Shown piece after piece: positions 28,469 through 56,572 of a stretch of 64,000 nucleotides of DNA; position 1 is the stretch's first letter, and every line of letters starts with the position of its first letter. The notes beneath the pieces are model-generated. The model saw only the letters and a program-made list of their open reading frames with translations, made no database searches and had not been told where the DNA came from. The stretch is from Flavobacteriales bacterium (GTDB taxonomy: Bacteria; Bacteroidota; Bacteroidia; Flavobacteriales; Schleiferiaceae), in contig CP051243.1 in the NCBI GenBank assembly GCA_017795025.1, forward strand, positions 496,001 through 560,000. The letters run 5' to 3'. Both the position numbers and the translations under genes were made by a program.

Positions 28469-30028
28469 ATGAAGACCATGAAGAAATTAATCCTTTTGCT
28501 TGGCCTGGGACTGATGGCGACGTATTCGCAGGCACAACAAATTCCACTTTACAGTAATTACTTCTTTACGCCTTATATCTACAATCCGGCTCAGTCGGGG
28601 AGTTCAGGCGTAACAGAAGCCACTATCTTACACCGTCGTCAGTGGTCCGGTATTCAAGGTTCTCCAGAAACATCTGCTTTAGGTGTTAATGGCTCCTTAA
28701 ATGACGGTGCCGTAGGATGGAGTGTTTATGGATTTTCGGACAAAACCGATATCCTAAACCGCGTTGGTATTTATGGTAACTACGCTTATCGGGTGCAGCT
28801 GACCAAGGAAATCAGTTTAGCGGGTGGTATTGGTGCCGGATACGTTAACCAGAGTATTGATCAGAGTGGTACCCGTGCCCGTGATGCTGGTGATATCTTC
28901 ACCATCGTAGCACCTAACCGCGGTACTTTCGACCTCAATATTGGTTTAAGCTTAATGGTGAGCGACTTCACCTTAGGTTTTGCCGCTCCTCAGCTATTAA
29001 GTCAGAATGTAGTGTATGCCACCAACCCTAGTGAGATCAATTACAACTTGATTCGTCACTATGTGGCTTCGGCACAATACGACTTTAAATTCGCTGGCGA
29101 TAAGCAGGTTTTAAGTCCGATCGTGATGGTTCGTGCGGCCGAGACCGTGCCTTTCCAAATCGACGCCGGACTACTTTACAATATGGTAGAATACGGTTAT
29201 GTAGGGGCGATGTTCCGTTCCAATTACGGGGTAACGGCCAATGTAGGGGTTAACCTAAGTGAGACTTTAACCTTGGGTTATGCTTACGATTTCTCTACCA
29301 ATACTTATGGCAGTAGCTTTGGCGCGAGTCACGAGTTTATGTTGACTTACCGCTTTGGTAGCAACAAAGAGAATGAGCGTTTACAAAACGAAATGAAGCG
29401 CTTGAAGTTGGAGCAACGTCGTAGTCGTGAGCAAAACGAAGAGTTAGTTGACGAGAAACTAAAAGAGTTTAAAGACAACTACAAAGCTGAGATGGCCAAA
29501 GCCCTTGAGGAAGAGAAGCAGAAGATGCAAGCCGAATTAGAGCGCTTACGCAAGCAAGCAGAAGAGGCGGCTAATAACAATCAGGGCAATATGAACAACC
29601 GCAATATGAATAACCCCAATACCAATGGAGGTAATCAAGGCGGTGGAACCATGCAAGATCTCACCAATCAGCGCGACAACAACCTGAATAATAATAATCC
29701 TAACACCGGTAACCAAGGTGGTCAGATGAACACGAATAACCCCAACCAAGGTGGTTATAACAGTGCGAATATGGCTTCTAATGTTACTCCCGGTTCTCCA
29801 GGATATTATGTTACCGCTGGGGTATTTGGCGAACAAGCAAATGCGACTCGCTTAATGAACCGCTTGGCCAGTCAAGGTTTAGATGCGCGCATCTTCCAAG
29901 ACCCAAGCAATAACTTCTACTATGTATACTTATTGAAGTTCAATTCGTATCAAGAAGCAGATCAAGCGAAGACCAGCAATCTTAACGGACGCTATACGGG
30001 CGACCTATGGATTAAGATTGTGAAGTAA
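28469..30028 (+). CDS. PorP/SprF-family protein fused to a SPOR domain
   Basis: 519 residues. The signal peptide ends SQAQ. Residues 20-310 form the PorP/SprF barrel (QIPLYSNYFFTPYIYNPAQSG, HRRQWSGIQGSP). A charged coiled-coil of about 60 residues (NEMKRLKLEQRRSREQNEEL and onward) comes next, followed by an Asn/Gly-rich linker of about 75 residues. The C-terminal 75 residues (PGYYVTAGVFGEQANATRLM and onward) look like a SPOR peptidoglycan-binding domain. PorP/SprF proteins help T9SS cargo with type B domains to reach the surface. The fusion could tether this barrel to the cell wall (inference). A start nine bases downstream is also possible. Confidence 0.9.
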   Translation: MKTMKKLILLLGLGLMATYSQAQQIPLYSNYFFTPYIYNPAQSGSSGVTEATILHRRQWSGIQGSPETSALGVNGSLNDGAVGWSVYGFSDKTDILNRVGIYGNYAYRVQLTKEISLAGGIGAGYVNQSIDQSGTRARDAGDIFTIVAPNRGTFDLNIGLSLMVSDFTLGFAAPQLLSQNVVYATNPSEINYNLIRHYVASAQYDFKFAGDKQVLSPIVMVRAAETVPFQIDAGLLYNMVEYGYVGAMFRSNYGVTANVGVNLSETLTLGYAYDFSTNTYGSSFGASHEFMLTYRFGSNKENERLQNEMKRLKLEQRRSREQNEELVDEKLKEFKDNYKAEMAKALEEEKQKMQAELERLRKQAEEAANNNQGNMNNRNMNNPNTNGGNQGGGTMQDLTNQRDNNLNNNNPNTGNQGGQMNTNNPNQGGYNSANMASNVTPGSPGYYVTAGVFGEQANATRLMNRLASQGLDARIFQDPSNNFYYVYLLKFNSYQEADQAKTSNLNGRYTGDLWIKIVK

Positions 30029-30080: not shown

Positions 30081-30293
30081 GTGCTTGTTTAGGGCGTGAG
30101 GGAATTGGTGGAGTGGTGGAAAGGTGGAGTGGTGTATTAGTAGAATGGTAGATTGGTGGATTGGTGGAGAGGGCGCGCCACTAAACTTTAGGGCAAGTGA
30201 TCGTGTGTTTTGCCTGTTCTTTATCTCTGTTTATGCCTATGAAGGGCGTGCTGAAAGCGGAGGTATTGGTACCAAGCAGCGGAACATGCTATT

Positions 30294-30378
30294 AAAACCT
30301 CTTGAGGAAATTTAAAAAGCTCAAGGGCTTTTCAAAAAAAGCTCCTGTGGTTTTCTGTAAAAGCTCAGGAGGTTTTTT
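30294..30378 (+). terminator. Nested hairpin with T run inside repeat copy 1
   Basis: AAAACCTCTTGAG (30294-30306) pairs with CTCAGGAGGTTTT (30364-30376, one mismatch) around a loop that itself contains smaller AAAAGCTC-type stems, and a T run follows. It could be a terminator or an RNA structure. It is not found in the other repeat copies. Confidence 0.4.
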
Positions 30379-30865
30379 CTTAATCATACGGTCGAAGCAG
30401 CATTTTTTACCGGATGGAGGAGTGGTTTCTTCCTTTAGAGCTGAGCTAGGGTAGGAGAGAGAGATGAGATTTTAGATAGGAAGGGGTGCTTTATTTTAGA
30501 GCCTAGAACCTAGAGCCTAGAGCCTAGACCGGTCGCGGTGCTCCCTGTTAGACTATTATTGTCTTTGGCACTATTATCTTTCTTTCAATGGAAGATTTAT
30601 TGTTCTGGAGACCATCCCCTTCGTGCAACGAAGGGGTGGATTCCGACGCAGGTCGGAAGACAGTCCCTTCATTGCATTACGGGCTGTAAAACGGGGTAGA
30701 ATTAACTTTTCAAACGTCAAAAACAACCTGGTTTTTCGAATTTGGCGACCTGATTATAGGGTCCTCAACATTTATTTTCTTTCATTTTTGCTTGATCAAC
30801 CGAGAGCTCTGCTCGAGCTCACGGATTCCATTGAAAATAAGAGTGACATCCGTAACATCGAAATT

Positions 30866-31015
30866 CGCCTTCGCTAAAGCTATAGCGAATTAATCCCGCC
30901 GATGCTAAAGCTATGTCTAATACAATCCGCCGCCGCTAAAACTCTGGCGAATACTACCCGTCGCTGCATAAAGCTATGGCAAATACATCCCGCCGCCGCT
31001 AAAGCTTTGGCGGGC
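30866..31015 (+). repeat. Imperfect ~32-bp tandem repeat with hairpin units
   Basis: About five units of roughly 32 bases. Each contains a variant of CCGCCGCTAAAGCTTTGGCGG, in which CCGCC and GGCGG can pair around an AAAGCTTT core. A shorter version with about three units lies at 42888-42975 in copy 3, so unit number varies between copies. Confidence 0.7.
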
Positions 31016-32309
31016 GAGGAAATCAAGGCTTGGAAGCTTCGCCTCAAAAATGATTGTAGTCTCCTGCTTCGGTGCACGAGTTAGATTACTTTTTTGGTAA
31101 GCTAATATTGTTCTCTTTAACAGTTCTTTTCTTTCATTTTTTCTTGATAAACCGAGAGCTCTGCTCGAGCTCACGGATACCATTGAAAATTAAAGCGACA
31201 TCCGTAAAAACGAAACATCCGCCAGAGGCGGACAAGAATAATCAAGGGCCCTGAAAGGCAATTTCGCGAAGCAGCCTACGGCGTGCTCCGCAAACCGCCG
31301 ACTCTTGGGCTGGGCCAGCACGATGAAACATTTTACTTAATTCAGAGATTTTCGCCTGTGGCTTTATCGAGTCCTCCATACTGCCCTTCGAGCGGACTAT
31401 TGCTGCTCAGGTCCCATTCTCCTCCGAACAAGGACTGCATGCAGGAAACGTTTATCCCCATTTTTTAATCCTTAAACATGTTCTTAGGTTCCAAACCCAC
31501 CTATGGAAGCATTCGGGCTTTCCCCAGTGATCGTGAGGATCTGAGCAGCTTGTCCGCCTCGGGAGGATAATTGCGTCCGCCTAGGGCGGAAGAAGCATGG
31601 AGCGATTAGGGCCGAACAGTTTTGCGGACGCAAGGGAGCAAAAATCACCTAGGGAAAGGCCTAGCCTTTTCCGCCTGCCAAAGCTTTATCGTCGGACAGC
31701 TTGGATACTTTTTACAAACGTATCTGTTATTTATAAGGTGTTTGTGAGCTCGGCCAAGGCCTTTGGTTTGGCAATGAAAAAAGTATCGTAAAAACTCAGC
31801 TAGTCGTCTACTTCCATTTTCTCGGCTACCCTTCCTAGGCCGCATCACCTCCTCACTTAGAACTGGTTCTAGTAGAATAATTTTTAAAATCTAGTGCATC
31901 TATCGTGTATCGTACCATTACTAGTTAACCTATCTACTAATACACCAATTCACCAACATCTAAGTCTGCCAAAGCTTTAGCGGCGGACAGCTTGGATACT
32001 TTTTACAAACGTATCTGCTATTTATAAGGTGTTTGTGAGCTCGGCCAAGGCCTTCGGTTTAGAAATGAAAAAAGGATCGTAGAAACTCAGCTAGTTCGCT
32101 ACTTTCATTTTTTCGTCTGCCCTTCCTAGGCCGGGTACGTCCACACAGAATTTTAGATTCAAAGGAAAACCCTTGGAATTCTAGTGCATCTGTCGTGTGT
32201 CGTCCAATTACCAGTCAACCAGTCAACCAATCCACCAATCCTCCAATCCCCCCATTAAGAATAAACACCAAACCTCAATTCAAACAAAAAGAATCGGTAA
32301 TTTCAAACC

Positions 32310-33189: not shown

Positions 33190-33958
33190 ACCTGCGGCTG
33201 CGCCTTCGGCTGAACTTAGACCAGTCGCTGCGCTCCTTGTTAGAGCTTAGACCGGTCGCTGGCCTGCGGCAGATCCTAGACCAGTCGCTGCGCTCCTTCT
33301 TAGAACTTAGACCGGTCGCGGTGCTCCCTGTTAGACTATTCTTTTCTTGAATACTATTATTTTACTTCCAATGGATAATCCATGTTGCGGAGACCATCCC
33401 CTTTGCGGGGCGAAGGGGTGGATTCCGACGTAGGTCGGAAGACAGTCCCTTTATGGCATTTTTTTCGTCTACCCTTCCTAGGCCGGATACGTCCGCACAG
33501 AATTTTAGATTCAAAGTAAAACCCTTGGAATTCTAGTGCATCTATCGTGTATCGTACCAATACTAGTTAACCTATCTACTAATACACCAATTCACCAACA
33601 TCTAAGTCTGCCAAAGCTTTATCGTCGGACAGCTTGGATACTTTTTACAAACGTATCTGTTATTTATAAGGTGTTTGTGAGCTCGGCCAAGGCCTTCGGT
33701 TTGGCAATGAAAAAAGTACCGTAAAACTCAGCTAGTCGTCTACTTCCATTTTCTTGGCTACCCTTCCTAGGCCGAATGCCTCCTCACAGAATTTTAGATT
33801 CAAAGTAAACCCTTGGAATTCGAGTGCATCTATCGTGTATCGCCTAGATACCAGTCAACCAATCCACCAATCAACCAATCGACTAATCAACCAATCGACC
33901 GATCTACCATTCCACCAATTCCCCAATCCACCAAACCACCAATCCCCCAATTCCCCAA
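33190..33958 (+). repeat. Composite non-coding repeat, copy 2 (lacks module B)
   Basis: It starts with a tandem array of about 45-base units carrying CTTAGACCAGTCGCTGCGCTCC (33210-33340), then the rest of module C (to 33460). A partial module A (33466-33605), a full module A (33608-33850) and a CCAATCCACC-type array (33851-33958) follow. Module B, present in copies 1, 3 and 4, is absent. No gene is visible. It runs directly into the attI-like segment. Confidence 0.8.
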
Positions 33959-34095
33959 CCCTAGGAACTCTCCTCCGAAAAACCCAGCTTTAAGGGCGCT
34001 TAAACCTGATATATACCTTAATTACAACCGCTGCTTAAACACTCCTCTGGTTGATGTTACTACTTAATAAAGGTTAGGATATAAACAAGTTGGGC
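33959..34095 (+). other. attI-like platform 1
   Basis: A 133-bp segment nearly identical to 43668-43800 (about seven differences by eye). It ends ATAAACAAGTT, and the sequence continues as box GTTGGGC (34089-34095, consensus GTTRRRY). The two loci diverge completely after GTT, the position where cassette integration would cut. Known attI sites also end in an AACAAAGTT-type core followed by the first cassette. Without an integrase or a test of activity this is an inference, but the breakpoint is seen directly. Confidence 0.6.
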
Positions 34096-34104
34096 AACAT
34101 TTGA

Positions 34105-34767
34105 ATGAAATACATCTCCATCATACTGACATTAACCTTTTTCCTGACTGGTGAACCTGGTTATGGACAAGAACTACATTTTGGATATCATCTGGTAAAT
34201 GAAGACAGTACACTTTCTCGGAACAACATAAAATCCTTGACTGTAAAGAATTGTATTGGGAGTAGTTGCATGGAAGTCAATTACGAATTTAATTCTCTAG
34301 GACTTATCACTAAACTTGCTCCAGCTATCATCAATCCCTATTCGACATGGGAATATTACCCAGACGGTAGAATAAAAGCTAAATACAGCAAGAATCACTG
34401 TTGTGATTCAGACACGATTTTTTCCTCGACACATTATGAGTATGGGATCAATAATAACCTTAAATATTTGATCTATCGATCTTACGAAAATGGTATGGTG
34501 ATTAGGGAAGACACCTTAGACAAGGAAAAAGAAGTTGACTTGAAAAACTATCCAACCATTCGAAACGAAATAGGTCAAGTTATCGAACAGGCCTTAACCA
34601 ACTTATACTATCCATGTGGTATCGTATTTAAAGGAACTCATAGAATTAGGTACCACTATTTGGACAATGGACTTATCGATTATGGAAAAATCTACAACGA
34701 CCAAGGTGAATTGATTGTAGACTTGAAATATGAATATGAAATAAGAACGTTGCCCAACAAGGGCTAA
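34105..34767 (+). CDS. Cassette gene 1: exported protein of unknown function
   Basis: 220 residues with a signal peptide (ends GYGQ). The mature part has repeating short blocks such as YEFNSLGLITKLA, YYPDGRIKAKY and YHYLDNGLIDYGKI, similar in rhythm to YD/RHS-type or MORN-like strand repeats. It starts 16 bases after the GTTGGGC box and its last codons (PNKG) lie inside the attC site, as in compact gene cassettes. It has no promoter box of its own and would depend on upstream transcription. Confidence 0.75.
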   Translation: MKYISIILTLTFFLTGEPGYGQELHFGYHLVNEDSTLSRNNIKSLTVKNCIGSSCMEVNYEFNSLGLITKLAPAIINPYSTWEYYPDGRIKAKYSKNHCCDSDTIFSSTHYEYGINNNLKYLIYRSYENGMVIREDTLDKEKEVDLKNYPTIRNEIGQVIEQALTNLYYPCGIVFKGTHRIRYHYLDNGLIDYGKIYNDQGELIVDLKYEYEIRTLPNKG

Positions 34768-34880
34768 GACTAATGCGGTTGAAACGTAAACAATAAATTA
34801 ACCGTTCTAAACTAAAATCCGTTTCGGTCGACGCTATCTCAGGTTCTAATCCCGCACTAGCTTTAGCCGAGCCGTTGGCG
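34752..34880 (+). other. attC-like site 1 (129 bp)
   Basis: R'' box GCCCAAC (34752-34758) and R' box GTTGGCG (34874-34880) flank a long stem. Bases 34762-34778 pair with 34852-34868 with 14 Watson-Crick pairs, one G-T pair and two mismatches. The loop of about 70 bases contains a further GAAACG/CGTTTC stem. R'' is the exact reverse complement of GTTGGGC at the start of the same cassette (34089-34095), the pattern expected of an excised circular cassette. Confidence 0.8.
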
Positions 34881-34890
34881 TGCATGTAAA

Positions 34891-35301
34891 ATGAAGAAAC
34901 CAGGAGATACGATAACAGCAACGGACCTAGAATCAAGTTGGGCGGAGATACTTTCAACTTTCGATAGGTTTATTGAAGGTGGGCATAAAGTTAGACCGAT
35001 TCGATTTTTAATTAGGCACATAATCGAGAAAGGATATTCGAGTAGGCTGTATGCAGGAAGTTCACTTTGGTCTTTATTGATATCTATGCCAACTGACATG
35101 ACAAGAACTCTAAAAGTGGAAGTTGACCAATTGACTTCTTCTGTACAGTTCTCGTATAAGAATCAGCTACCTCGACCAGTTGAACCCTTGTGGACAGAAA
35201 CTTGTCAGCTAACTGAAGCTATTGACACTTTTGAACACTTCCTCGAGAATCATGAGGATTGGAAAGAAATAAAAAACACGACACGCCAACAAGGTGTATA
35301 G
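34891..35301 (+). CDS. Cassette gene 2: hypothetical protein
   Basis: 136 residues, no signal peptide, mostly helical. Visible features include WAEILSTFDRFIEGGHK near the start and TEAIDTFEHFLENHEDWKEI near the end. I do not recognise the family. It begins 17 bases after the GTTGGCG box and its stop codon lies inside attC site 2. The gene is visibly richer in A+T than the backbone operons, in line with horizontal origin. Confidence 0.7.
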   Translation: MKKPGDTITATDLESSWAEILSTFDRFIEGGHKVRPIRFLIRHIIEKGYSSRLYAGSSLWSLLISMPTDMTRTLKVEVDQLTSSVQFSYKNQLPRPVEPLWTETCQLTEAIDTFEHFLENHEDWKEIKNTTRQQGV

Positions 35302-35343
35302 TGCATACCCTGCAGGATACGCACCATACACAGAACGTTAGCG
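35284..35343 (+). other. attC-like site 2 (60 bp)
   Basis: R'' CGCCAAC (35284-35290) and R' GTTAGCG (35337-35343) flank a stem of about 16 pairs between 35294-35309 and 35315-35331, with two mismatches, one unpaired A at 35317 and a five-base loop. An extrahelical base is typical of attC. R'' is the exact reverse complement of GTTGGCG at the start of this cassette (34874-34880). Confidence 0.85.
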
Positions 35344-35363
35344 ACCAAAATCAGATGCATTAA

Positions 35364-35921
35364 ATGGTTGAGAACATATTTGAACAAATATCGAGATCAA
35401 AAAAAGGAAGACTCCAAGCATCAAACGAAGAATGGGACGGGATAATAGAAACTTTTAATCGAGATATTGTTCAGCTGAAGGATTCCTATAAGAATTGGAA
35501 AGTTGAGCTAGAAGGAACGCATTCTACTGCAGATTTGAGCCGACCTTCTTCCTTACCTTTTGGTGAAAAAATTGATTGGATGTCTGTAAATATTCGTGGT
35601 ACGCATCCAAATAAATTAGACAATGAATATTTTGAGGTAACTCAAGAAAAAACCTTCTTTAAGCTTAAGTCAAAATTTCTCGTAAAATCAAAGAGCGCAA
35701 GTCTAAGAAACCGATTATATAAATCACAAACATTATTAAAATTCTACAGTCTCCCATTTACCACAAATCCTAAAATTATTGGAAAGACCATAGGGAATTT
35801 GTTCGTCGTGGAATCGCAAATTTTTGCTGATTCAAATCAAAAAGAGTTAGTGAAGGCATTCATTAATGCACTTGAAGAAGTTATGGACATTTTAGAATTA
35901 TCTTATGGTTCAAGTCAATAA
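35364..35921 (+). CDS. Cassette gene 3: hypothetical protein
   Basis: 185 residues, no signal peptide, lysine- and serine-rich, A+T-rich codons. No family was recognised. It starts 27 bases after box GTTAGCG (35337). The expected matching R'' box CGCTAAC and an attC stem are absent between its stop and the next gene at 36052, so the cassette appears to have lost its 3' end, and the array ends here. Confidence 0.7.
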   Translation: MVENIFEQISRSKKGRLQASNEEWDGIIETFNRDIVQLKDSYKNWKVELEGTHSTADLSRPSSLPFGEKIDWMSVNIRGTHPNKLDNEYFEVTQEKTFFKLKSKFLVKSKSASLRNRLYKSQTLLKFYSLPFTTNPKIIGKTIGNLFVVESQIFADSNQKELVKAFINALEEVMDILELSYGSSQ

Positions 35922-36051
35922 CACTAAAAGAAAAAAGTAACCTTATGAAGATTAAGGGTATTTAAAGCCCAATTAACTGTGAATGAAAATCTTGCGGCCT
36001 CCAATTCCGAAACTCCCTAATAACAATCCAAACTTTGATCGAGAATTTTGA

Positions 36052-36747
36052 ATGAAATCATCGCTTCTAAGTCTGTTTCTTCTTCTGATTTTTAATAGCC
36101 TAAAAGCACAGGTCTATTCGCTAGAGCATACCTATTTCTTAATTGATTACTTGGAAGTAAAGCAAGATTCGTTTGTCTTTGTTTGTACGACGGACTTTAG
36201 CCTGACCGAATATTTAGTCGAGGGACCTTTAAGAAGAAGGGGGGACACAATAGTACTTAATCCTGGTGTTACTGCCTCACCATTAGGTCTGCTAACCGAA
36301 AAGGTGAACATTGACGATACTTCTAAATGCATATTTCGAGTCTTGGATAGCTTAGGGAACCCAATTCAATTTTACGAAAGCTGGACCAACGATTCTGCGG
36401 ATTATTGCTGTATACTAGATGAAAATGGAGCTTTGGTTTTATATCAAAGTCCAAATTATTCCAAAGCCTGGCTTAATCCATTTTGGAGCCGGCGTTATGG
36501 TGTGGAACTTCCAATCCAAAACGACTTCGAACTGGGATATGAAATAGTTTACACCATACTTGAACCTGATCGGTTTTACCTATTCACAGAGGATGAGACG
36601 TCATTTTTAAAGGAGGGTAATAAATTAATCCTTTTGAAAGCTAATGGGGATCAATCTGATTATATCATGAAGAGAAGCTTTTTCGGCAAATGGAAAATAA
36701 TTAAGGAAATAGAGAGATTAAAAAAGTCAGTATATAGCCCAGAATAG
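36052..36747 (+). CDS. Exported protein of unknown function
   Basis: 231 residues with a signal peptide (ends LKAQ). The mature part has acidic and aromatic residues, a DYCCILDENG motif near residue 120, and no family that I recognise. It is not bordered by cassette boxes. The 130 bases upstream (35922-36051) contain no GTT core site and no recognisable gene. Confidence 0.65.
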   Translation: MKSSLLSLFLLLIFNSLKAQVYSLEHTYFLIDYLEVKQDSFVFVCTTDFSLTEYLVEGPLRRRGDTIVLNPGVTASPLGLLTEKVNIDDTSKCIFRVLDSLGNPIQFYESWTNDSADYCCILDENGALVLYQSPNYSKAWLNPFWSRRYGVELPIQNDFELGYEIVYTILEPDRFYLFTEDETSFLKEGNKLILLKANGDQSDYIMKRSFFGKWKIIKEIERLKKSVYSPE

Positions 36748-36792
36748 GGCAGTCCTAGTTTTACAAGCATGGAAGTCCACCTTTACTAATGA

Positions 36793-37179
36793 ATGAAAGC
36801 GAACTTAAAAGCATCTTATCTTCTGCAAACTGCATTAGTCAGCACGCTGGCCTTTATCGTGTTCGAGAGCTTAAGGCGAATGCCATTTTCAAATGTGTGG
36901 AAGGAACTTGGAAAGTCTGGAATGGGCATTAGTTTCTTTGTGGCAGTAGAATTCGCGCTCTTGAACTTGCTCATCCATGGGCTTAATTTTGTTTTCTTGA
37001 AAAAGGGCAATACCAAAGTTGCTTTTGATTTACCTTCTATCCTTTGGTTGATCTTAGGTACGGTTTACCTGCTTTTGATTTATCAAAGTGGGACAAAATT
37101 ACTCCTAGAATACCTCCCGATTATCTTATTCCTAGAGCCCATTCTGTACAATCAAGGACTAAAGCGTTGGCTCAACTAA
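36793..37179 (+). CDS. Small four-helix membrane protein
   Basis: 128 residues with about four hydrophobic segments (near residues 10-22, 45-68, 78-96 and 103-118) and a basic C-terminus. No family was recognised. It follows the previous gene by 45 bases and may be co-transcribed with it. Confidence 0.6.
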   Translation: MKANLKASYLLQTALVSTLAFIVFESLRRMPFSNVWKELGKSGMGISFFVAVEFALLNLLIHGLNFVFLKKGNTKVAFDLPSILWLILGTVYLLLIYQSGTKLLLEYLPIILFLEPILYNQGLKRWLN

Positions 37180-37237
37180 GAAAGAACTAAAGTGCATTTT
37201 TCCTAACCCACCACCAATTACCCACTCCACCGCACCC

Positions 37238-37259
37238 TTACCAATTTTTGGTAACTTTG
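37238..37259 (+). promoter_or_regulatory. parDE promoter with overlapping operator
   Basis: TTACCAA-TTT-TTGGTAA (37238-37254) is a perfect 7-3-7 palindrome. It overlaps a perfect Bacteroidota -7 box TAACTTTG (37252-37259), which is 16 bases before the parD start. ParD-type antitoxins usually repress their own promoter, so this is the likely ParD or ParDE binding site (inference). Confidence 0.6.
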
Positions 37260-37275
37260 TTTAAAACCGTCTAAA

Positions 37276-37518
37276 ATGAAAAATACCTCCGTATCTCTTG
37301 GAAGTTACTTTGATGAATTTGTACAGAGTCAGGTAGCCGCCGGTCGCTATAAGAATGTGAGTGAAGTGATTCGTGCGGGGCTAAGGTTATTGGAAAACGA
37401 AGAAAGCAAAGTGATTGTCTTGCGGAATGCCATTCAAGCGGGAATAGATAGCGGCATTGCGACTGACTTTAATCGAGATGACTTCCTTAGTGAATTGAAG
37501 CAATCGGTTAACAAGTGA
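37276..37518 (+). CDS. parD: ParD-family antitoxin
   Basis: 80 residues. The N-terminal ribbon-helix-helix (NTSVSLGSYFDEFVQSQVAAG, then the NVSEVIRAGLRLLE block) binds DNA, and the C-terminal tail (about 45-80, with GIDSGIATDFNRDDFL) binds and neutralises ParE. It is followed by the toxin gene with a one-base gap. The length and order are those of a normal parDE module. Confidence 0.92.
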   Translation: MKNTSVSLGSYFDEFVQSQVAAGRYKNVSEVIRAGLRLLENEESKVIVLRNAIQAGIDSGIATDFNRDDFLSELKQSVNK

Positions 37519-37519
37519 G

Positions 37520-37783
37520 ATGGCAGACTTCCAATTAACCAAACAAGCCGTTTCCGACTTAGCCAGCATTTGGAATTATACCGTTTTGGAGTGGTCGGAG
37601 TCACAAGCAGAAAAGTATTACAATCTTCTTTTGGATACCTGTGCCAGTATTTCCGAGAATCCTAAGCTTGGTAAAAGCTACGAAGGAATTGCAAATAACC
37701 TTTTAGGCCTTAGAATTCAAAAACACATCATCTTTTATCGGGTGCTTCCCAATAAACCTCTAGAAATAACCAGAATACTATAG
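37520..37783 (+). CDS. parE: ParE-family toxin, C-terminus cut by a stop codon
   Basis: 87 residues with the ParE/RelE fold pattern: L-KQAVSDLASIWNYTVLEWSE, NPKLGKSYEGI, GLRIQKHIIFYRVL and ITRIL. ParE toxins normally continue after RIL with a histidine and an MD-x-x-x-x helix. Here the RIL codons are followed by TAG, and the same frame then continues with AQMDLKKRLNKFH, the expected tail, to a TAA at 37855. The toxin therefore looks shortened by about 25 residues through a nonsense change. ParE acts on DNA gyrase. Activity of the short form is uncertain. Confidence 0.85.
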   Translation: MADFQLTKQAVSDLASIWNYTVLEWSESQAEKYYNLLLDTCASISENPKLGKSYEGIANNLLGLRIQKHIIFYRVLPNKPLEITRIL

Positions 37784-37867
37784 GCTCAAATGGACCTTAA
37801 AAAGAGATTAAATAAATTCCATAGTCTAGCCTTTATCCAAGACCTAAACCCTTAACTGATTCCGCAA

Positions 37868-38908
37868 ATGAAGCTCCGTCGAATCTTAATCTTCCTCAGC
37901 ACCCTGCTTTTCGTGCTTATCACTTGGCTGTTCTTTATTCCCAGATCTTATGATGTGCAAGCCTTTGTTAAAAGGGAAGGGACGCAATACTGGGATCTCC
38001 GCACGGGTTCGAGGATTGGCTACTATAAGGTGGAAGCCCATTCAGTAGCCCGAAAATACCCTATTATTTACCTGCATGGCGGACCCGGGGGGCGGATCAA
38101 AAATGAATTAATCGAAGTGTTAAGACCTTTAGCTGCATTGGGTCACGATTTATACTTCTACGATCAAATTGGTAGTGGGCATTCGGCGAGGTTGGAGGAT
38201 ATTCAGGAATATACGGTACAAAGGCATGTCGCTGACTTAAAAGAAATAATTGAGCGTATAGGCTCCGAGAAGGTAATTATCATCGCTCATTCCTGGGGTT
38301 GTATGTTGGCGGCAAATTACCTCCAGGATCAGCCAAATAGAGTAGCGAAAATGGTTCTTGAGGGCCCCGGTCCGATCTTACCCATTAGGAGGAGCTTAAT
38401 GGAGCTAAGTCCGCCGGATAGTTTACAACTCAGAAAACCGGAATTCACCAATGCCGAAGGAAATCGGAAGGCCAATAATTGGCGGACTTGGTTAATACGG
38501 AAGTGGGCTTATCGAACCCATAAGAAGCTGGCATCCGATCAAGAGGCGGACGACTTTTTCACTTACCTCAATCAGGAATTGAGTAAATCAACTTATTGCC
38601 AATACGATCAAGAAATTCCGGTCGAAGGGGGAGGAGGGTACTATGCCCATATCATGACGGTTAAAAGCTTTGATCAGGTAGAGGACAAGCGGGAACAATT
38701 AGCGAAGATTGACCTTCCGGTTCTCCTCCTTAAAGGGCAATGCGATAATCAGGCCTGGGGATTCACTCAAGAATATTTGGAGCTCTTCCCCAATTCCCAG
38801 TTAATGCTAATGGAAAACGCTGGGCATAATTTGATCCGGGAGAGTGAGGGGAAGTATTATACATTGATTAGTGATTTTGTTTTGAGGGAAGGGGATGTCG
38901 CGAAATAA
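37868..38908 (+). CDS. Alpha/beta hydrolase, prolyl-aminopeptidase-like, membrane anchored
   Basis: 346 residues. An N-terminal hydrophobic segment (about residues 6-23) anchors or exports the protein. The oxyanion motif HGGPGG is at 70-75 and the nucleophile elbow AHSWGC at 140-145 (Ser142). A late Asp in GQCDNQAWG and His in AGHNLI complete the triad. The HGGPG motif and lid region suggest proline iminopeptidase-like enzymes. The substrate is not known. No cassette sites border it. Confidence 0.88.
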   Translation: MKLRRILIFLSTLLFVLITWLFFIPRSYDVQAFVKREGTQYWDLRTGSRIGYYKVEAHSVARKYPIIYLHGGPGGRIKNELIEVLRPLAALGHDLYFYDQIGSGHSARLEDIQEYTVQRHVADLKEIIERIGSEKVIIIAHSWGCMLAANYLQDQPNRVAKMVLEGPGPILPIRRSLMELSPPDSLQLRKPEFTNAEGNRKANNWRTWLIRKWAYRTHKKLASDQEADDFFTYLNQELSKSTYCQYDQEIPVEGGGGYYAHIMTVKSFDQVEDKREQLAKIDLPVLLLKGQCDNQAWGFTQEYLELFPNSQLMLMENAGHNLIRESEGKYYTLISDFVLREGDVAK

Positions 38909-39010
38909 CGCTAATCCGATTTAGATTGCATCTTGAGAAGCACAGGTTCGTAAATTTGATCATAACACTCTCAAAAAGTATTAACTAGTTCATCCGCAAG
39001 CAAAGCCAAA

Positions 39011-39520
39011 ATGGGGTTTTTCAATAATCATAAGCATTTCTTACGGCAACACCTATCATTTCTGGAATCTACTGGGCTGGAGGGGAAAGAAGGTGGCTTT
39101 ACCAGTTATTTGCGAGAAATTGGAATTAATGCATTCGGCAAATATTGGAATCAAGATCACTCAACTATTGATTGGGGTGAAATCGAGAATCACTATCAAT
39201 TCTTTTTCGATTATGAAGGCAATCAAAATGAAATCAAAGAATGGCTTAAAGGAAGTCCAATTTACAACTATGACACTTTAGTGACTTGGCTATCGTGGGA
39301 CGACCCAATAATTCGTATCAAGACGAAAGAATTCATAGAAAATTGGGAGAAGTTCAATATTGCCAGTGCTTGGGAAGGGATTATCTTGACAACAGAAGAC
39401 GGAAAGTACTTTTTGGAGTTCACGGACGATTGGAAATATCACTTGAACAGTAACTTTGAGATAAAACCAGGAACGAAAAAAGAAAAAAAGGCAGCAGCTA
39501 ACAAAACCTTTAAGCAATAG
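39011..39520 (+). CDS. Cassette-type gene: hypothetical protein
   Basis: 169 residues, rich in aromatic residues (YWNQD, YQFFFDYEG, WLSWDD). No family was recognised. Its last eight codons and stop lie within an attC-like site whose R'' box (AGCTAAC) and following bases (AAAACC) equal those of the SUMF1 cassette. The matching start box GTTAGCT is missing upstream, so the left cassette boundary has been lost or replaced. Confidence 0.65.
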   Translation: MGFFNNHKHFLRQHLSFLESTGLEGKEGGFTSYLREIGINAFGKYWNQDHSTIDWGEIENHYQFFFDYEGNQNEIKEWLKGSPIYNYDTLVTWLSWDDPIIRIKTKEFIENWEKFNIASAWEGIILTTEDGKYFLEFTDDWKYHLNSNFEIKPGTKKEKKAAANKTFKQ

Positions 39521-39561
39521 CGCCCTGTGGGATGCTACTGCTCATAGTTAAACCGTTCGAA
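39496..39561 (+). other. attC-like site 3 (66 bp)
   Basis: R'' AGCTAAC (39496-39502) and a GTT core at 39555 (GTTCGAA, a poor match to GTTRRRY) flank a stem of about 11 pairs between 39508-39521 and 39534-39547, with AATAGC/GCTACT at its tip and three mismatches. It is weaker than sites 1, 2 and 4 but lies in the same position relative to the gene. Confidence 0.55.
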
Positions 39562-39590
39562 GCAGCAATACATGAACGACCTAAACTTAA

Positions 39591-40058
39591 TTGAATACAG
39601 AATTGAAACATAAAGAACCCGATTTATTGAAACCTACTCTGATTTTTTCAGCAGTTGGACTTTTTATACCAGGGTTTACTGCGATTGGAATTCTCGGTTT
39701 TCAAATGCTGCTCTCTTCTTTCGGACTTGAATGCCCTATTGCTTGGACAGTTCTTTGGTTGATTACAACTATAGGCGGACTGATTCTACCCATACTTTTC
39801 TTCCTGTACCTAAAGACTTTTACAGAAAATAAACAAGCGTATATAAAAACTAGACTGACTTTCTTTAATCTAATTGAATACACATTCCTTCAAGCTAGTT
39901 TAGCTCGATTCTTTACGAGTGGGCAAACTCTTTGCTATCAATCGGACGGGCAAATCGGAATTGAATTAGTACTTTCAGCTTGGCTCGCACTTCCTATTTT
40001 AATAGGACTTAGTGTTCTTTTCGGACAGATGTCGGGAACTAGATATGAGAAAGAATGA
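39591..40058 (+). CDS. Cassette-type gene: small membrane protein
   Basis: 155 residues with about four hydrophobic helices (near residues 18-40, 50-72, 88-105 and 125-147). The start is taken as TTG at 39591, because the nearby ATG at 39572 opens a different frame that stops after 13 codons. It lies 36 bases after the GTT core of attC-like site 3. No attC follows it, so its 3' boundary is unclear. No family was recognised. Confidence 0.55.
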   Translation: MNTELKHKEPDLLKPTLIFSAVGLFIPGFTAIGILGFQMLLSSFGLECPIAWTVLWLITTIGGLILPILFFLYLKTFTENKQAYIKTRLTFFNLIEYTFLQASLARFFTSGQTLCYQSDGQIGIELVLSAWLALPILIGLSVLFGQMSGTRYEKE

Positions 40059-40349
40059 AAACCTATACTACCGAAAATGATGGCCCTTGCACAACTCTTC
40101 CAAAACCATAAAAAGAGAGCCTATTAAGGCCTTTCTAAGTACCATTAGATCACCTCTATTTTCAGGAACGCAAATCGGCTGAGAAAGACTACATACCTTT
40201 CGAATGCCCATAGACTGCGTAAGTTTTATGATCTACCATTTAAACGGCAGTGGCCAATTAGGCTAAAAAAAAGTATAAGTACAAATTGTATTAGTTTGGA
40301 GGTGCAAAGCTTCGAATGAAATTCGGCTTTAAAATATTGAGTCTAATAA
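40059..40349 (+). other. Spacer without a convincing gene
   Basis: Two short stretches look protein-like: LDHLYFQERKSAEKDYIPF at about 40150-40205, followed in another frame by RLRKFYDLPFKRQWPIRLKK at about 40210-40270. They may be one frameshifted gene remnant. Neither has a start codon in frame and no homologue is recognised. No RNA gene or repeat is visible. Confidence 0.25.
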
Positions 40350-41093
40350 GTGATAAAAGCTTCTAATCCGTTTAGTTTAAGCAATGCCTCCTTGCTGTGG
40401 ATCGCCCTTAGCGTGGGGTTTACCCTTTTCATTTTTGTCCTTTTACCTTGGATCAAGAGGAGAAAGGATAGGAAGCTGTTTCAATCGGTTAGTTCCCTAA
40501 AGCGCGGCACTCCTTCCGAAAGAGATTTGGTCCTCAGTCTCTTAAAAATGGGCGTGCCAGCTAGTACCATATTCCATGATTTGTATCTCCCTAAAGGCCA
40601 GCGAAAATACGCTCAACTTGATGTAGTAGTCCCCAGAGCAGAAGGCGTAATCGTAATAGAGGTAAAGGATTGGAGTGGTTGGATCTACGGAAATGGAAGA
40701 AGCTCCCATTGGACGCAAGTGCTAGCTTACGGCAATCGAAAGTATCGACATTATAATCCTATTCAGCAGAATCTCAATCACATTTCGGCACTTAAAAGTC
40801 GGTTAAAGCAATTCCAAGAAATCCCCTTCTTTTCCATTGTTGTGTTTTATGGAGATTGTGAACTAAAGGAAATAAACTATGTACCCAAAGGAACCTACCT
40901 TGTAAAACCTAACCGATTAAAGGAGGTGTTGCAAGAGATTAAAGAAAATCATGAACCGGCGCCCTACACGGATAAGCGGGAAGTATTACGGTTCTTAGCC
41001 AAAGCGGTTGAAAATGGTGATAACATGGAAATTCAACAGCAACACTTAGCAAATATTAAAGATTTAATCGGTAAGCATCGAATTTATGACTAG
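40350..41093 (+). CDS. NERD-domain protein with N-terminal membrane helix
   Basis: 247 residues starting at GTG. One membrane helix (about residues 13-33) is followed by a NERD (nuclease-related) domain. The pattern SERDLVLSLLKMG, then QLDVVVPRAEGVIVIEVKDW with the D...E-x-K active-site-like residues (about residues 88-107), is typical. A YNPIQQNLNHISALKSRL block follows. NERD proteins are linked to DNA processing, sometimes to defence, but the role here is unknown. Confidence 0.85.
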   Translation: MIKASNPFSLSNASLLWIALSVGFTLFIFVLLPWIKRRKDRKLFQSVSSLKRGTPSERDLVLSLLKMGVPASTIFHDLYLPKGQRKYAQLDVVVPRAEGVIVIEVKDWSGWIYGNGRSSHWTQVLAYGNRKYRHYNPIQQNLNHISALKSRLKQFQEIPFFSIVVFYGDCELKEINYVPKGTYLVKPNRLKEVLQEIKENHEPAPYTDKREVLRFLAKAVENGDNMEIQQQHLANIKDLIGKHRIYD

Positions 41094-41189
41094 GACCTTG
41101 TAGCATCACCCCAAACCGTCCTTTTCCATCACTGCTATCAGAGACCAGAAAATCCTATCTTTCTCTTGGTTTTTATTACTTGAAATCCA

Positions 41190-41753
41190 GTGGTAGCAAA
41201 AGAGAAACTTGTCCTCGTCAACCTAAGAACCGACCACCTACCATTCTTGGTAGACTATTGGTTGGGCTCTGATGCGGAGTATCTCATTGGGATGGGGGTC
41301 GACCTGCAAAAACTGCCCAAAGAGGAGGATTTGCTGGGCATGTTAAAGTCTCAAATCGACAAGCCGGATGCAGAAAAAACTTCCCTAGCCTTTATTTTAG
41401 AGCTGGAGGGCAGGCCCATTGGTCATTGCAATGTGAATGAGATTGAATTCAAGCATCAGGCGAAAATGCATTTGCATATATGGCCTTCCGATCAGCGGCA
41501 AAAAGGCATAGGGACCAAAATGCTGCGCATGGCCATTCCTCAATTTTTTAGTCGACTGCACCTGCAAAGTCTTTATTGCGAGCCCTATGCGGCGAATCCC
41601 GCCCCTCAAAAAACCTTGGAAGGCTTGGGCTTCGAATGCCTCAAGCGCTACCGTACCGTGCCCGGTTCTTTAAACTTTGAGCAGGAAGTCCTGCAATACT
41701 GCATGACGAAACCCCTCTATGAAGAGTTAAAGGCTAAAGGGTATTGGGCTTAA
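41190..41753 (+). CDS. GNAT-family N-acetyltransferase (RimJ/RimL type)
   Basis: 187 residues starting at GTG. The acetyl-CoA binding region shows as HLHIWPSDQRQKGIGTKML (about residues 92-110), followed by LYCEPYAANPAPQKTLEGLGFE, typical of RimJ/RimL-type enzymes that acetylate N-terminal amines or small molecules. The substrate is unknown. The next gene starts 21 bases after the stop, so they may be co-transcribed. Confidence 0.85.
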   Translation: MVAKEKLVLVNLRTDHLPFLVDYWLGSDAEYLIGMGVDLQKLPKEEDLLGMLKSQIDKPDAEKTSLAFILELEGRPIGHCNVNEIEFKHQAKMHLHIWPSDQRQKGIGTKMLRMAIPQFFSRLHLQSLYCEPYAANPAPQKTLEGLGFECLKRYRTVPGSLNFEQEVLQYCMTKPLYEELKAKGYWA

Positions 41754-41774
41754 ACCCCATCTATAAATCGAAGC

Positions 41775-42506
41775 ATGAAGAAAGTACTCCTGGTTCTATT
41801 GTCATTAAATTTAAGCGTTTCCACTTTGAGCGCGCAATCTCAAGCCAGCTATTCCGATCAATACCTCAGTCGCTCCTTCAAAGTATTCCAAATGGCTGAT
41901 TTTCAAATGGCCTATCATATCTTACCTTTTCTCCGGGCGCGATTTAAACAGGAACTGGCCGATACTTCCAGTTTCCGCAATCCTTTTGATAGTCTCTCTA
42001 AATACATGGACATTCGGTGGAGCTCCGATAGCCTGGTAAAAACCTATTGCTGGAATGAGCACAATGGTAGCTGCTGCTATACTTCAGCCAATTTTGTCCA
42101 ATTTAGAACGCCAAGGGGTCAGATTAAAATGCTCGATTTAGAAAGTCCCGATGACGAAGGAGCCGAGTATTTTATTAGTGATCTTCAGCGCCTCGAAAAG
42201 GAGGGCCAGGCTTATTACTTACTACTAGGTTGGGGATCCTGCTGCGGCGGGAAGCATTATCAAGTGGCTAAGCTTTATCAAATTACGGAGGCGACTTTTA
42301 TTCTGGTACAAAATGCTTTCGCCGATGCGCAAAGCTTGTTCATTGAGGCCAATCGCTCCCAGGAAATAGCCCTTCAGTATTCCCCAGAAACCCAAATCCT
42401 ATCCTATAACCGTTACACCTACAATGAAGAAACGGGCTTTTACCAGAATGAAAAAATTCCCATGCAATGGCAATGGGGGAAGAAGGGGTTTCAAGTTTTG
42501 CAGTAA
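41775..42506 (+). CDS. Exported protein of unknown function
   Basis: 243 residues with a signal peptide (ends LSAQ). Cysteine pairs in NEHNGSCCYTS and GWGSCCGGKHYQ are conspicuous and could bind metal or form disulfides. No family was recognised. It is the last gene before repeat copy 3 and is followed by a weak terminator. Confidence 0.65.
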   Translation: MKKVLLVLLSLNLSVSTLSAQSQASYSDQYLSRSFKVFQMADFQMAYHILPFLRARFKQELADTSSFRNPFDSLSKYMDIRWSSDSLVKTYCWNEHNGSCCYTSANFVQFRTPRGQIKMLDLESPDDEGAEYFISDLQRLEKEGQAYYLLLGWGSCCGGKHYQVAKLYQITEATFILVQNAFADAQSLFIEANRSQEIALQYSPETQILSYNRYTYNEETGFYQNEKIPMQWQWGKKGFQVLQ

Positions 42507-42562
42507 GGTCAGTTTTTTTTTATTGTTTAATATCAACTGAGTGCTTTACTATAGATCGCGAG

Positions 42563-42590
42563 CGTCATTACAATAAACATGACGTTTTTC
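42563..42590 (+). terminator. Weak terminator-like hairpin
   Basis: CGTCAT (42563-42568) pairs with ATGACG (42579-42584), followed by TTTTTC. A near-direct repeat of CTGAGTRCTT flanks it at about 42538 and 42592. The stem is short, so it is only a possible terminator. Confidence 0.35.
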
Positions 42591-42639
42591 ACCTGAGTAC
42601 TTAACTGTCAAGGTCCCACACGGCAAGGAAACCAGATTC

Positions 42640-43667
42640 ACCAATTTCCCAATCCACCTATTATTGACCTCGGAGGACCATCCCCTTCATTGCATTACGG
42701 GCTGTAAAACGGGGTAGAATTAACTTTTCAAATGTCAAAAACAACCTGGTTTTTCGAATTTGGCGACCTGATTATAGGGTCCTCAACATTTATTTTCTTT
42801 CATTTTTTCTTGATAAACCGAGAGCTTTGCTCGAGCTCACGGATACCATTGAAAATTAAAGCGACATCCGTAACAACGAAATTCGCCGCCGCTAAAGCTA
42901 TGGCGAATCAAACCCGCCCACTTGTAGGCTATGGCAAATACTACCCGCTGCCGCTAAAGCTTTGGCGGGCGAAGAAATCAAGGCTTGGAAGCTCCGACTC
43001 TAAAATGTTCATAGACTCCTGCTTCGGTGCACGAGATAGATTGCTTTTTTGGTAAGCTGTTATCATTCTCTTTAACAGTTTTTGTCTTTCATTTTTTCTT
43101 GATAAAAAACGAAACAAAAAATCAAGGCTTGGAAGGTTCGCCTCTAAAATGATTGTAGTCTCCTGCTTTGGTGGGCGAGCTCCTGTTGTCGCTTCCCATC
43201 TCAGCTAGTCGTCTACTTCCATTTTCTCGGCTACCCTTCCTAGGCCGCATCACCTCCTCACTTAGAACTGGTTCTAGTAGAATAATTTTTAAAATCTAGT
43301 GCATCTATCGTGTATCGTACCATTACTAGTTAACCTATCTACTAATACACCAATTCACCAACATCCAAGTCTGCCAAAGCTTTAGCGGCGGACAGGTTGG
43401 ATACTTTTTACAAACGTATCTGCTATTTATAAGGTGTTTGTGAGCTCGGCCAAGGCCTTCGGTTTAGCAATGAAAAAAGTATCGTAAAAACTCAGCTAGT
43501 TCGCTACTTTCATTTTTTCGTCTACCCTTCCTAGGCCGAATGCCTCCTCACAGAATTTTAGATTCAAAGTAAAACCCTTGGAATTCGAGTGCATCTATCG
43601 TGAATCGCCTTGATACCAGTCAACCAATCCACCAATCCACCAATTCCCCAATCCACCAATTCCCCAA
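42640..43667 (+). repeat. Composite non-coding repeat, copy 3
   Basis: Order: a short CCAATCCACC stretch (42640-42662), the end of module C (42665-42720), module B (42715-43030), a shortened second B (43037-43190), partial module A (43198-43366), full module A (43369-43612) and a CCAATCCACC array (43613-43667). It is closely similar to copy 1 over B and to copy 2 over A. No gene is visible, and open frames such as 42732-43055 are chance translations of the repeat. Confidence 0.85.
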
Positions 43668-43804
43668 CCCTAGGAACTCTCCTCCGAAAAACCTAGCTTT
43701 AAGGGCGCTTAAACCTGATTTATACCTTAATTACAACTGCTGCTTTAACACTCCTCTGGTTGTTGTTAGTACTTAATAAAGGTTAGGATATAAACAAGTT
43801 AGCT
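43668..43804 (+). other. attI-like platform 2
   Basis: The second copy of the 133-bp segment at 33959-34091, again directly after a repeat copy and again ending AAACAAGTT. The continuing box is GTTAGCT (43798-43804), different from GTTGGGC at platform 1, and everything downstream is unrelated. The sequence contains CTCTGGTTG and GGTTAGG motifs that could serve as additional integrase-binding direct repeats (inference). Confidence 0.6.
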
Positions 43805-43822
43805 GTTATTTAAAAAAACAAC

Positions 43823-44536: not shown

Positions 44537-44590
44537 CAAAACCTATACGCAATGCCCTTCGGGACACTGCGCATAGCTAAAACGTTGTCA
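44531..44590 (+). other. attC-like site 4 (60 bp)
   Basis: R'' AGCTAAC (44531-44537) is the exact reverse complement of GTTAGCT at the start of this cassette (43798-43804). R' is GTTGTCA (44584-44590). CTATACGCA (44543-44551) pairs with TGCGCATAG (44568-44576) with one mismatch, around a loop containing a TGCCC/GGGACA mini-stem. Confidence 0.8.
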
Positions 44591-44600
44591 CAAATGCAGA

Positions 44601-44981
44601 ATGATAGCTTGGACAATCATATTATTCCCCCCATCCCTTGCCTGCGACGTGATGGTTCAGCTAAAACAGATAGCTCATCTTAGCACAGAAAAATTAAGAA
44701 TGACCGGTGAGACAATTCCCTTTGACTTTGATATTCACGGTAAAATCGATACAATTCTGCTGAAAAATCTGCCTTTTATCGAAGACCCTGGCGAATTTGA
44801 GTCCATAAAAATTGAACTCTCAAACGGTCAAACATTTAAACAAGCCAGCAAGGAAGTTTGGGATTCCGTTGACATAAGTGCAACAAAAGGGCTCATCAAT
44901 AATCTAAGATCAGACAGGGTTATCTGCCTAATCCAGAACATACAGAACTTCATTTTTGTATTTTCACATTCTTATGCCTAG
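44601..44981 (+). CDS. Cassette gene, probably 3'-truncated: hypothetical protein
   Basis: 126 residues from the ATG at 44601, 17 bases after the GTTGTCA box. ATG codons at 44652 and 44700 are alternatives, and the more protein-like part starts around the latter (MTGETIPFDFDIHG). No family was recognised. Its end overlaps the next gene by eight bases, and no TGACAAC box or attC stem follows, so the cassette seems to have been cut at its right end by the flanking sequence. Confidence 0.5.
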   Translation: MIAWTIILFPPSLACDVMVQLKQIAHLSTEKLRMTGETIPFDFDIHGKIDTILLKNLPFIEDPGEFESIKIELSNGQTFKQASKEVWDSVDISATKGLINNLRSDRVICLIQNIQNFIFVFSHSYA

Positions 44982-45997: not shown

Positions 45998-46036
45998 GAA
46001 TACCAACAACCAATCCACCAACAACCAATCCACCAG
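45998..46036 (-). repeat. CCAATCCACC-type repeat at a gene 3' end
   Basis: A short run of CCAACAACCAATCCACC-type units ends five bases before the stop codon of the DinB gene, without the rest of the composite repeat. In the sense of that gene it reads GGTGGATTGG after the stop. Confidence 0.6.
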
Positions 46037-46041
46037 CACCC

Positions 46042-53388: not shown

Positions 53389-53526
53389 ATTCTAGATTCT
53401 AATCAACACTAATCCACGAAGGAATAATCCATAGCAGCTCTCTGCCTTCTCCTTTTTCGAGTATTCAAGAGCCAGCTAAACTCTGCGAAACTCTTTAACC
53501 TCTTTTAACTCTGCGTTAAAGCAAAC

Positions 53527-53612
53527 CCATTCCACCAATCCACGAATCCACCAATCTACCAATCCACGAATCCACCAATCACCAATCACCAATCCCCCAA
53601 TCACGAATCCCC
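53527..53612 (-). repeat. CCAATCCACC-type repeat reaching into a gene 3' end
   Basis: A run of CCACCAATC, CCACGAATC and CCCCCAATC units ending in the stop region of the DUF2007 gene, whose last codons (GDS) fall in the array. No composite repeat modules are attached. The rest of 53389-53526 holds no gene that I can see. Confidence 0.65.
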
Positions 53613-55448: not shown

Positions 55449-55494
55449 AAGGTTTATTTAGATTTTGGAGGCGTGAAGATAGTGATTAGGGGGG

Positions 55495-56572
55495 AGTGGG
55501 GAAATGGTGGATTTGTGGATTTGTGGATTGGGGAATTGGTGAATCGGTAGATTGGTTGATTGGTTGACTGGTTGACTGGTGGATTGGTGGACTGGTGGAC
55601 TGGTTGAATGGTATCTGGACGCTACGATAGGTGCACTAGAATTCCAAGGTTTTTCCTTTGAATCTAAAATTTTGTGAGGTGGTATCCGGCCTAGGAAGGG
55701 TAGCTGAGAAAATGGAAGTAGGCGACTAGCTGAGTTTTTACGATACTTTTTTCATTGCCAAACCGAAGGCCTTGGCCGAGATCACAAACACCTTATAAAT
55801 AACAGATACGTTTGTAAAAAGTATCCAACCTGTCCGCCGCTAAAGCTTTGGCAGACTTGGATGTTGGTGAATTGGTGTTTTAGTAGATAGGTTAACTAGT
55901 TATGGTCCGATACACGATAGATGCACTAGAATTTAAAAATCATTCTACCATGACCAGTCTTAAGTCAGGGGGTGATGCGGCCTCGGAAGGGTAGCCAAGA
56001 AAATGGAAGTAGACGACTAGCTGAGTTGGGAAGCGACATCAGGAGCTCGCCCACCGAAGCAGGAGGCTACAAGCATTTTAGAGGCGTACCTTCCAAACCT
56101 TGATTTTTCTTGTCCGCCTCTGGCGGATGTTTCGTTTTTATGGATATCATGTTAATTTTCAATGGAATCCATGAGCTCGAGCAAAGCTCTCGGTTTATCA
56201 AGAAAAAATGAAAGGAAAGAGCTGTTGAGGAGTCAAAACTCAGGTTACCAAATTCGTAAGAACACCTTGCTTTTCGCATCTGAAAAGTAAAACCTACCCC
56301 GTTTTACACTCCGAAGCACGCAAAGGGGACGGTCTCCTCAACATAGGATTATCCTTTGAAAAAAAATGGAAGTTCTACAGAATGTTATAGTCTAAAAGGG
56401 AGCACCGCGACCGGTCTATATTCTAAGCTCTAACAAGGAGCGCAGCGACTGGTCTCAAATATATCCTCCCGTTCCTCTGCGTTGATGCAATCGCGCCACA
56501 GCCGAAAACCCAATCTACCAATCCACCACTTCACCAATTTCCCAATTCCCCAAAAACCAATTCACCAGCACC
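55495..56572 (-). repeat. Composite non-coding repeat, copy 4, inverted
   Basis: Reading on the minus strand, the order is a GGTGGATTGG-type array (56572-56509), module C (about 56455-56290), module B (about 56290-56040), partial module A (56035-55862), full module A (55858-55613), and a CCAATC-type array (55612-55495). The two ends are therefore inverted relative to each other, like copy 1. The last array abuts the DUF4249 stop codon. No gene is visible. Confidence 0.85.

Follow-up and report, generated by a model that had tools for sequence, protein, structure and literature searches.

Species-restricted G-rich octamer arrays at the ends of partly genus-shared intergenic repeat mosaics in a Flavobacteriales genome

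The window analysed here, a stretch of 64,000 nucleotides (positions 496001-560000 of the 3,439,134-base contig that makes up the one-contig genome G000), contains four copies of a composite repeat with degenerate arrays of an 8-bp unit at one or both ends. With a probability of roughly 60%, these composites are non-coding mosaics of modules partly shared within the genus, to which this species has added private caps that grow by slippage, the arrays being G-rich bacterial tandem repeats of the type described by Rehm et al. 2015, a class that suits them better than transposon ends do. By this account the composite would be assembled from short intergenic modules, some of which are palindromes, into a mosaic of largely fixed order and polarity. 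Several modules would be common to the genus, and in this species the mosaic ends would often carry a private cap, consisting of an anchor and, outward of it, a degenerate (TGGTGGAT)n array that in many cases extends as far as the adjacent gene. Two such caps, facing outward to two genes, would give a composite its inverted look.

The features of the window are listed below in window positions; positions of six or seven digits in the text are those of the contig, unless another genome is named.

30096-32262, plus strand: copy 1 as a whole, a G-rich array, a core of about 2 kb and a C-rich array
30096..30178, plus strand: left array of copy 1, degenerate (TGGTGGAT)n, G-rich on the plus strand
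30511..32203, plus strand: core of copy 1, modules A B C D E F D G H I J K L N, then K L M N
32204..32262, plus strand: right array of copy 1, (ACCAATCC)n, C-rich on the plus strand
33200..33839, plus strand: core of copy 2, modules P P A B L M N (short array) K L M N, without a left array
33840..33964, plus strand: right array of copy 2, 125 bp
33968..34092, plus strand: attI-like segment after copy 2, with cassette-type genes next
42699..43605, plus strand: core of copy 3, modules C D E F F L N (short array) K L M N
43606..43673, plus strand: right array of copy 3, 68 bp
43677..43800, plus strand: second attI-like segment, after copy 3
46002..46037, plus strand: short C-rich array (ACCAACAACCAATCC)n at the right edge of an insertion of about 16 kb, missed by the array scan
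53521..53590, minus strand: solo array between genes 52870-53388(-) and 53601-54056(-)
55488..55618, minus strand: right (distal) array of copy 4, C-rich on the composite strand and G-rich on the plus strand
55619..56501, minus strand: core of copy 4, modules P A C D G F L (short array) N K L M N
56502..56554, minus strand: left array of copy 4, G-rich on the composite strand and C-rich on the plus strand

An earlier note on this DNA had described copy 1 as bounded by inverted arrays, and the anatomy bears this out: a G-rich array (30096-30178) enters the copy and a C-rich array (32204-32262) leaves it. The same inverted layout is found on the minus strand in copy 4 (56502-56554 and 55488-55618); copies 2 and 3 end, as had also been described, in the right-hand array followed by the attI-like segment, and all these ends are built of degenerate short tandem units, namely 8-bp arrays. 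The left array of copy 1 starts about 15-20 bp past the T-run of the terminator-like hairpin of a PorP/SprF-SPOR gene (28469-30028, hereafter the SPOR gene), and that of copy 4 lies 18 bp past the stop codon of gene 56573-57436(-); copy 3 is devoid of a left G-rich array and shows, by eye, a short C-oriented remnant at about 42637-42663. The core of copy 1 is a non-coding mosaic that includes palindromic modules, whose palindromic character was judged by eye except for module J, and a short internal array at about 31925-31956. In all four copies the tail is repeated in tandem at a spacing of 288-291 bp, the repeated unit running from module L to N and including an array; module K is found in the second unit and, in copy 1, also in the first. 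The segments that follow the right arrays of copies 2 and 3 are about 96% identical over 137 bp; despite this, the two arrays measure 125 and 68 bp, which points to length instability. A search of the window against Rfam gave no family at gathering scores, and the core of copy 1 found no match among plasmids and phages. Heptamer-type tandem units (TAGAGCC) are present at 30497-30528, at the left end of the copy 1 core, and in modules P/A (33200-33320); similar units are visible by eye after the SPOR gene in the congener G002.

Across the genome, arrays were searched with a 24-mer pattern allowing up to 3 mismatches, which gave 113 matches in G000 and 0 for the reversed control; positions are available for the first 100 of the 113 among the matches listed. 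Modules P and A to N, together with the attI-like segment T, were cut from copies 1 and 2 and mapped with the arrays onto stretches chosen around matches, the own-genome counts of arrays and composites thus deriving from about 419 kb of 3.44 Mb; genes were ORF picks of at least 90, 100 or 120 aa made by script, from which repeat-overlapping ORFs were dropped. The sampled sequence holds 59-62 arrays, as compared with 0 in one mononucleotide shuffle (against 59); an array at 2682-2747 lies outside the sampled stretches and enters no array count. Composites, defined as three or more modules, number 32, the tandem block at 1363171 being excluded. Of these, 23 carry a right array and 7 an inverted left one; 6 have both and 8 neither, so that the form bounded by inverted arrays is a minority. 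The module strand agrees with the composite strand in 292 of 294 cases, the two exceptions being J matches in stretches L010 and L023, and the canonical order is kept in 255 of 292 consecutive pairs. Solo arrays are frequent, since 20 of the 49 arrays of at least 44 bp lie in gaps without core modules, and a core without any array accounts for the 8 composites mentioned above. A 102-aa ORF located between two composites (2336835-2337143) looks nucleotidyltransferase-like by eye and has no match in the sampled stretches of G001, G004 and G005.

Many arrays are joined to one of two anchors. Read along the G-rich strand, 16 arrays are followed by a type I anchor, around GATTGCTTCAACGCAGAG, and 13 by a type II anchor, around ACGATAGATGCACTAG; 29 of the 49 arrays thus have an anchor on their inner side, whereas 4 of 49 show one, of type I, at the outer edge. 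Conversely, an array is present at 18 of 22 type I and at 22 of 29 type II anchors. In the proposed cap, type II would be the anchor of the right end and type I that of the other ends; neither anchor was recognised by pattern at 20 of the 49 arrays, which counts against the preferred reading. The description of the arrays as terminal units therefore stands insofar as they are outermost, inverted and in many cases (29 of 49 arrays of at least 44 bp) anchor-linked; their proposed function as transposon ends is a different matter, considered below.

Copies 1-3 and a set of integron-like cassettes are contained in an insertion of about 16 kb that is absent from four of the six congeners. In G001, G005, G004 and G006 the gene next after the SPOR gene is orthologous to 46042-46611(-), with stop-to-stop distances of 80, 79, 46 and 189 bp, respectively (other sequence follows in G003, and the contig ends in G002); as the two genes are adjacent in 4 of 6 congeners, the 16.0 kb found here are extra. 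The left edge of the insertion is the left array of copy 1, past the terminator-like hairpin, and the right edge is the short array at 46002-46037, which abuts gene 46042-46611(-) at its stop codon. The arrays might also be telomere-like junction fillers, laid down at breaks and marking insertions and rearrangements: the G strand leads away from the gene, an array 3' of XerD sits at a synteny jump relative to G005, and, apart from this case, in the four stretches for which synteny was tabulated the informative array or composite gaps were conserved in only 1 of 10 comparisons with G005 and 1 of 9 with G001 (9 and 8 not conserved). However, the excess disappears against control gaps of at least 20 bp without an array, of which 4 of 17 are conserved and 13 are not (p = 0.62 for G005 and 0.63 for G001); against all gaps, 15 of 33 are conserved in G005 and 18 are not (p = 0.06). 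In view of the missing excess over the control gaps of at least 20 bp, the arrays are not claimed as breakpoint markers, synteny-break marking was rejected, and an origin as junction fillers appears very improbable.

MITEs are characterised by terminal inverted repeats at both ends, a target-site duplication, a clean empty site and a cognate transposase. The suggestion that the arrays, possibly together with the anchors, serve as terminal inverted repeats for a transposase supplied in trans, with solo arrays as remnants, draws on the inverted outermost arrays of 6 of the 32 composites, on the recurrent anchors joined to arrays, and on a composite of about 0.6 kb (2339803-2340471) whose flanking genes are only 58 bp (G001) or 92 bp (G005) apart, as judged from tblastn extents. 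Such a function is not supported: 25 of 32 composites have no left array, arrays and core each occur alone, and array length and units vary between copies, leaving no fixed recognition sequence. For the island and the six composites with two arrays, the longest direct word shared by the outer flanks was 3-6 nt and never above shuffles, although degenerate array edges are fuzzy enough for short target-site duplications to be missed, and the edge at 737349 was placed 6 bp too far out. In the empty-site comparison recommended in the earlier note, the relatives' sites are diverged; at 2339803-2340471, the one site compared closely, the intergenic sequence of the relatives is replaced, not split. 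Concerning a transposase recognising the array, which the same note had anticipated, transposase-type searches of G000 covered the Y1 family (PF01797) and tyrosine recombinases; the RAYT/Y1 (REP-type) family gave 0 matches in G000, and matches were obtained in 2 of the 7 genus genomes. A MITE or Y1-transposase origin was rejected on the absence of PF01797 matches and of target-site duplications above shuffles, and a MITE-like nature of the composites is regarded as unlikely. MITEs, the subject of PMC10969869, and the composites have in common that they are non-coding and dispersed, with inverted ends in some copies; the composites differ in their variable end sequence, in showing no above-chance target-site duplication and in usually having one array-free end. 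The case is a warning against taking degenerate arrays for transposon ends merely because they flank a repeat in inverted orientation.

The distribution among species separates arrays from core. The array 24-mer, with its 113 matches in G000, has 0 in the 38 relatives searched, six of which are from the same genus, and TRF found no octamer arrays in 18 stretches of relatives. Conversely, core modules are clearly matched in G001, G003 and G005, with a single match in G002, and no arrays were found in the sampled stretches of these congeners, at least three of which share the core modules. In the stretches of relatives the L, F and J cores were counted 7, 6 and 15 times, as compared with 1, 0 and 0 for anchor I, anchor II and array; the corresponding values in G000 are 30, 21 and 13 for the cores and 31, 32 and 104 for anchors and array, and shuffled stretches gave 0 for cores, 2-3 for anchors and 0-1 for the array. 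Arrays and both anchors are therefore at or under the shuffled level in the relatives, while the L, F and J cores are present; since stretches were selected for matching, these counts indicate presence or absence, and densities are not comparable. Thus the arrays look recent, being found in one species only and missing from six congeners, at least three of which share the core repeats. Between species the arrays are independent of the central modules, the very finding that the earlier note had named as speaking against its reading; within G000 arrays and anchors are linked, so that a single element family with array ends is still conceivable. Clusters of core modules D, G, H and J without octamer arrays are found in G005 at 1010985-1034079 and 2883800-2890896.

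Mosaics of this sort are not without parallel. REP, BIME and REPIN sequences, which are associated with RAYT transposases (PMC2817692, PMC3116915, PMC3733652), are likewise many-copy intergenic mosaics with palindromic modules; the composites are distinguished by a size of 1-2 kb, up to more than ten modules, a largely fixed order and the lack of a Y1/RAYT match in G000. A literature search, judged by titles and the beginnings of abstracts, found no description of the octamer array or of the composite.

At gene edges the orientation of the arrays is strict. All 26 array edges lying within -30 to 60 bp of a gene have the G-rich strand starting at the gene: at stop codons 16 of 16 are G-rich on the gene strand, and at starts 10 of 10 are C-rich on the gene strand. 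The solo array at 53521-53590 is a case in point, being G-rich on the gene strand, 10 bp past a stop codon and followed by a type I anchor. Among the 49 arrays of at least 44 bp the nearer gene is on the 5' side of the G strand in 41 (p = 2e-6). In gaps without core modules the tendency is only 13 of 20 (p = 0.26), which counts against the preferred reading, and six of the seven misses belong to one tandem block. Much of the polarity rule is geometry, because a cap ending an intergenic element must face a gene. At 1363171-1364191 (stretch L015, 11172-12192), the site left out of the composites, seven tandem repeats of about 160 bp, each with an 8-bp array, form a block; by eye, it lies directly after a tRNA-gene-like sequence and has a hairpin with an A- or T-run between repeats.

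A similar polarity has been reported by Rehm et al. 2015 (PMC4692102). In that paper, G-rich heptamer repeats, GGGNATC, are described in Xanthomonas and Nostoc, preferentially within 50 bp of stop codons (sense) or starts (antisense) and nearer to the 5' ORF; convergent inverted pairs occur in xanthomonads, repeat length varies, Xac retains 83% of the Xcc repeats in an unchanged context, and a regulatory role could not be identified. The arrays described here share with these repeats the short G-rich tandem unit, the genome-wide intergenic location, the variable length, the polarity (sense strand after a stop, antisense before a start) and, with those of xanthomonads, the convergent inverted pairs. 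They differ in the unit, an octamer (TGGTGGAT) with GG instead of GGG tracts and very degenerate, in their restriction to a single one of the species searched, whereas the Xanthomonas repeats are kept in relatives, in adjoining anchors and kilobase composites, and in showing none of the higher local stability reported for the heptamers. In the preferred reading the arrays would accordingly be placed among the G-rich, potentially quadruplex-forming tandem repeats of that study, with a predicted potential that is weak; their length would change in both directions through replication slippage and gene conversion, and they may spread by recombination between dispersed copies, and are probably tolerated only between genes. 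It is improbable, and should be taken as speculation, that a general bacterial process builds or keeps G-rich arrays, with the G strand leading from the gene edge into intergenic space, independently and with different units in Xanthomonas, in Nostoc and here, where the array would serve as an end cap making genus-wide repeats dispersible. A third unrelated lineage, with a different unit and the polarity of Xanthomonas and Nostoc, would make the cause of this polarity testable.

Selection for a boundary function, either through a G-rich structure formed past stop codons in RNA or DNA or through an insulator antisense of starts, would suit the strict gene-edge polarity and its likeness in two unrelated bacterial groups (PMC4692102). 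Yet the arrays are missing from all 38 relatives searched, some array-bearing genes (the SPOR gene and gene 2340471, by eye) already possess a terminator-like hairpin, and Rehm et al. could identify no regulatory role. The predicted structure is also only weak: in an RNA model quadruplex potential was assigned to 25 of 45 arrays versus 15 of 45 singly shuffled ones, and the DNA fold of the copy 2 array has a z of -0.89. Arrays kept as functional boundary elements thus seem improbable. In the core, module J was aligned from 24 of 25 copies (from G000, G005 and G001; 23 distinct, trimmed; an L020 copy with an insertion was omitted). Three stems, in a structure picked from the alignment itself, pair in 95.9% of cells over the 23 distinct rows, and one of them shows a change from C-G to A-U on both sides between species. 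The 12 cells with a two-sided change are above all 500 shuffles; the pairs with a two-sided change, 2 versus 1.8 in shuffles, do not exceed them, and both are in one helix. These data favour some constraint on the predicted module J hairpins and fall short of showing an RNA.

The passage of copies 2 and 3 from the array straight into an attI-like segment and cassettes would suit a further possibility, that the arrays are part of an integron platform, as a recognition region beside attI. Against this, only these two arrays adjoin an attI-like segment, the closest array found is at a distance of 3.4 kb for a third segment (1948417) and of about 1.6 kb for a diverged fourth, and the stretch of an integron-integrase-like gene contains no array. 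An integron origin of the arrays was rejected on the array-free integrase stretch and on the two adjoining arrays alone, and it is the reading given least credence.

The integron-like features deserve description in their own right. The attI-like segment, ending in TTAATAAAGGTTAGGATATAAACAAGTT, occurs at three places, 33968-34092 and 43677-43800 in the window and 1948417-1948504 in G000 (stretch L020, 12418-12505); the diverged fourth is at about 420361 (stretch L010). At both window copies the first cassette starts, by eye, with the reverse complement of the R'' end of its attC, the pairs being GTTGGGC/GCCCAAC and GTTAGCTG/CAGCTAAC. The run at 34105-45312 consists of small, same-strand, cassette-like genes, including a ParDE pair, a hydrolase and NERD, GNAT and FGE-sulfatase domain proteins; one cassette region is 94% identical to G005 at 966440. 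When the bottom strand of attC-like sites was folded, two were clearly better than shuffles (z -3.4 and -2.5) and a third had a z of -0.8. Elsewhere in G000, at 1128026-1129126(-) (stretch L028, 8027-9127), a 366-aa tyrosine recombinase close to integron integrases is encoded, with 228 bits for NF040815, above the cut-off, and 201 bits for TIGR02249, below the cut-off of 265; downstream of it and in the same direction lie attC-like sites and cassette-like genes, and one of these sites, when folded, gave a z of -3.0.
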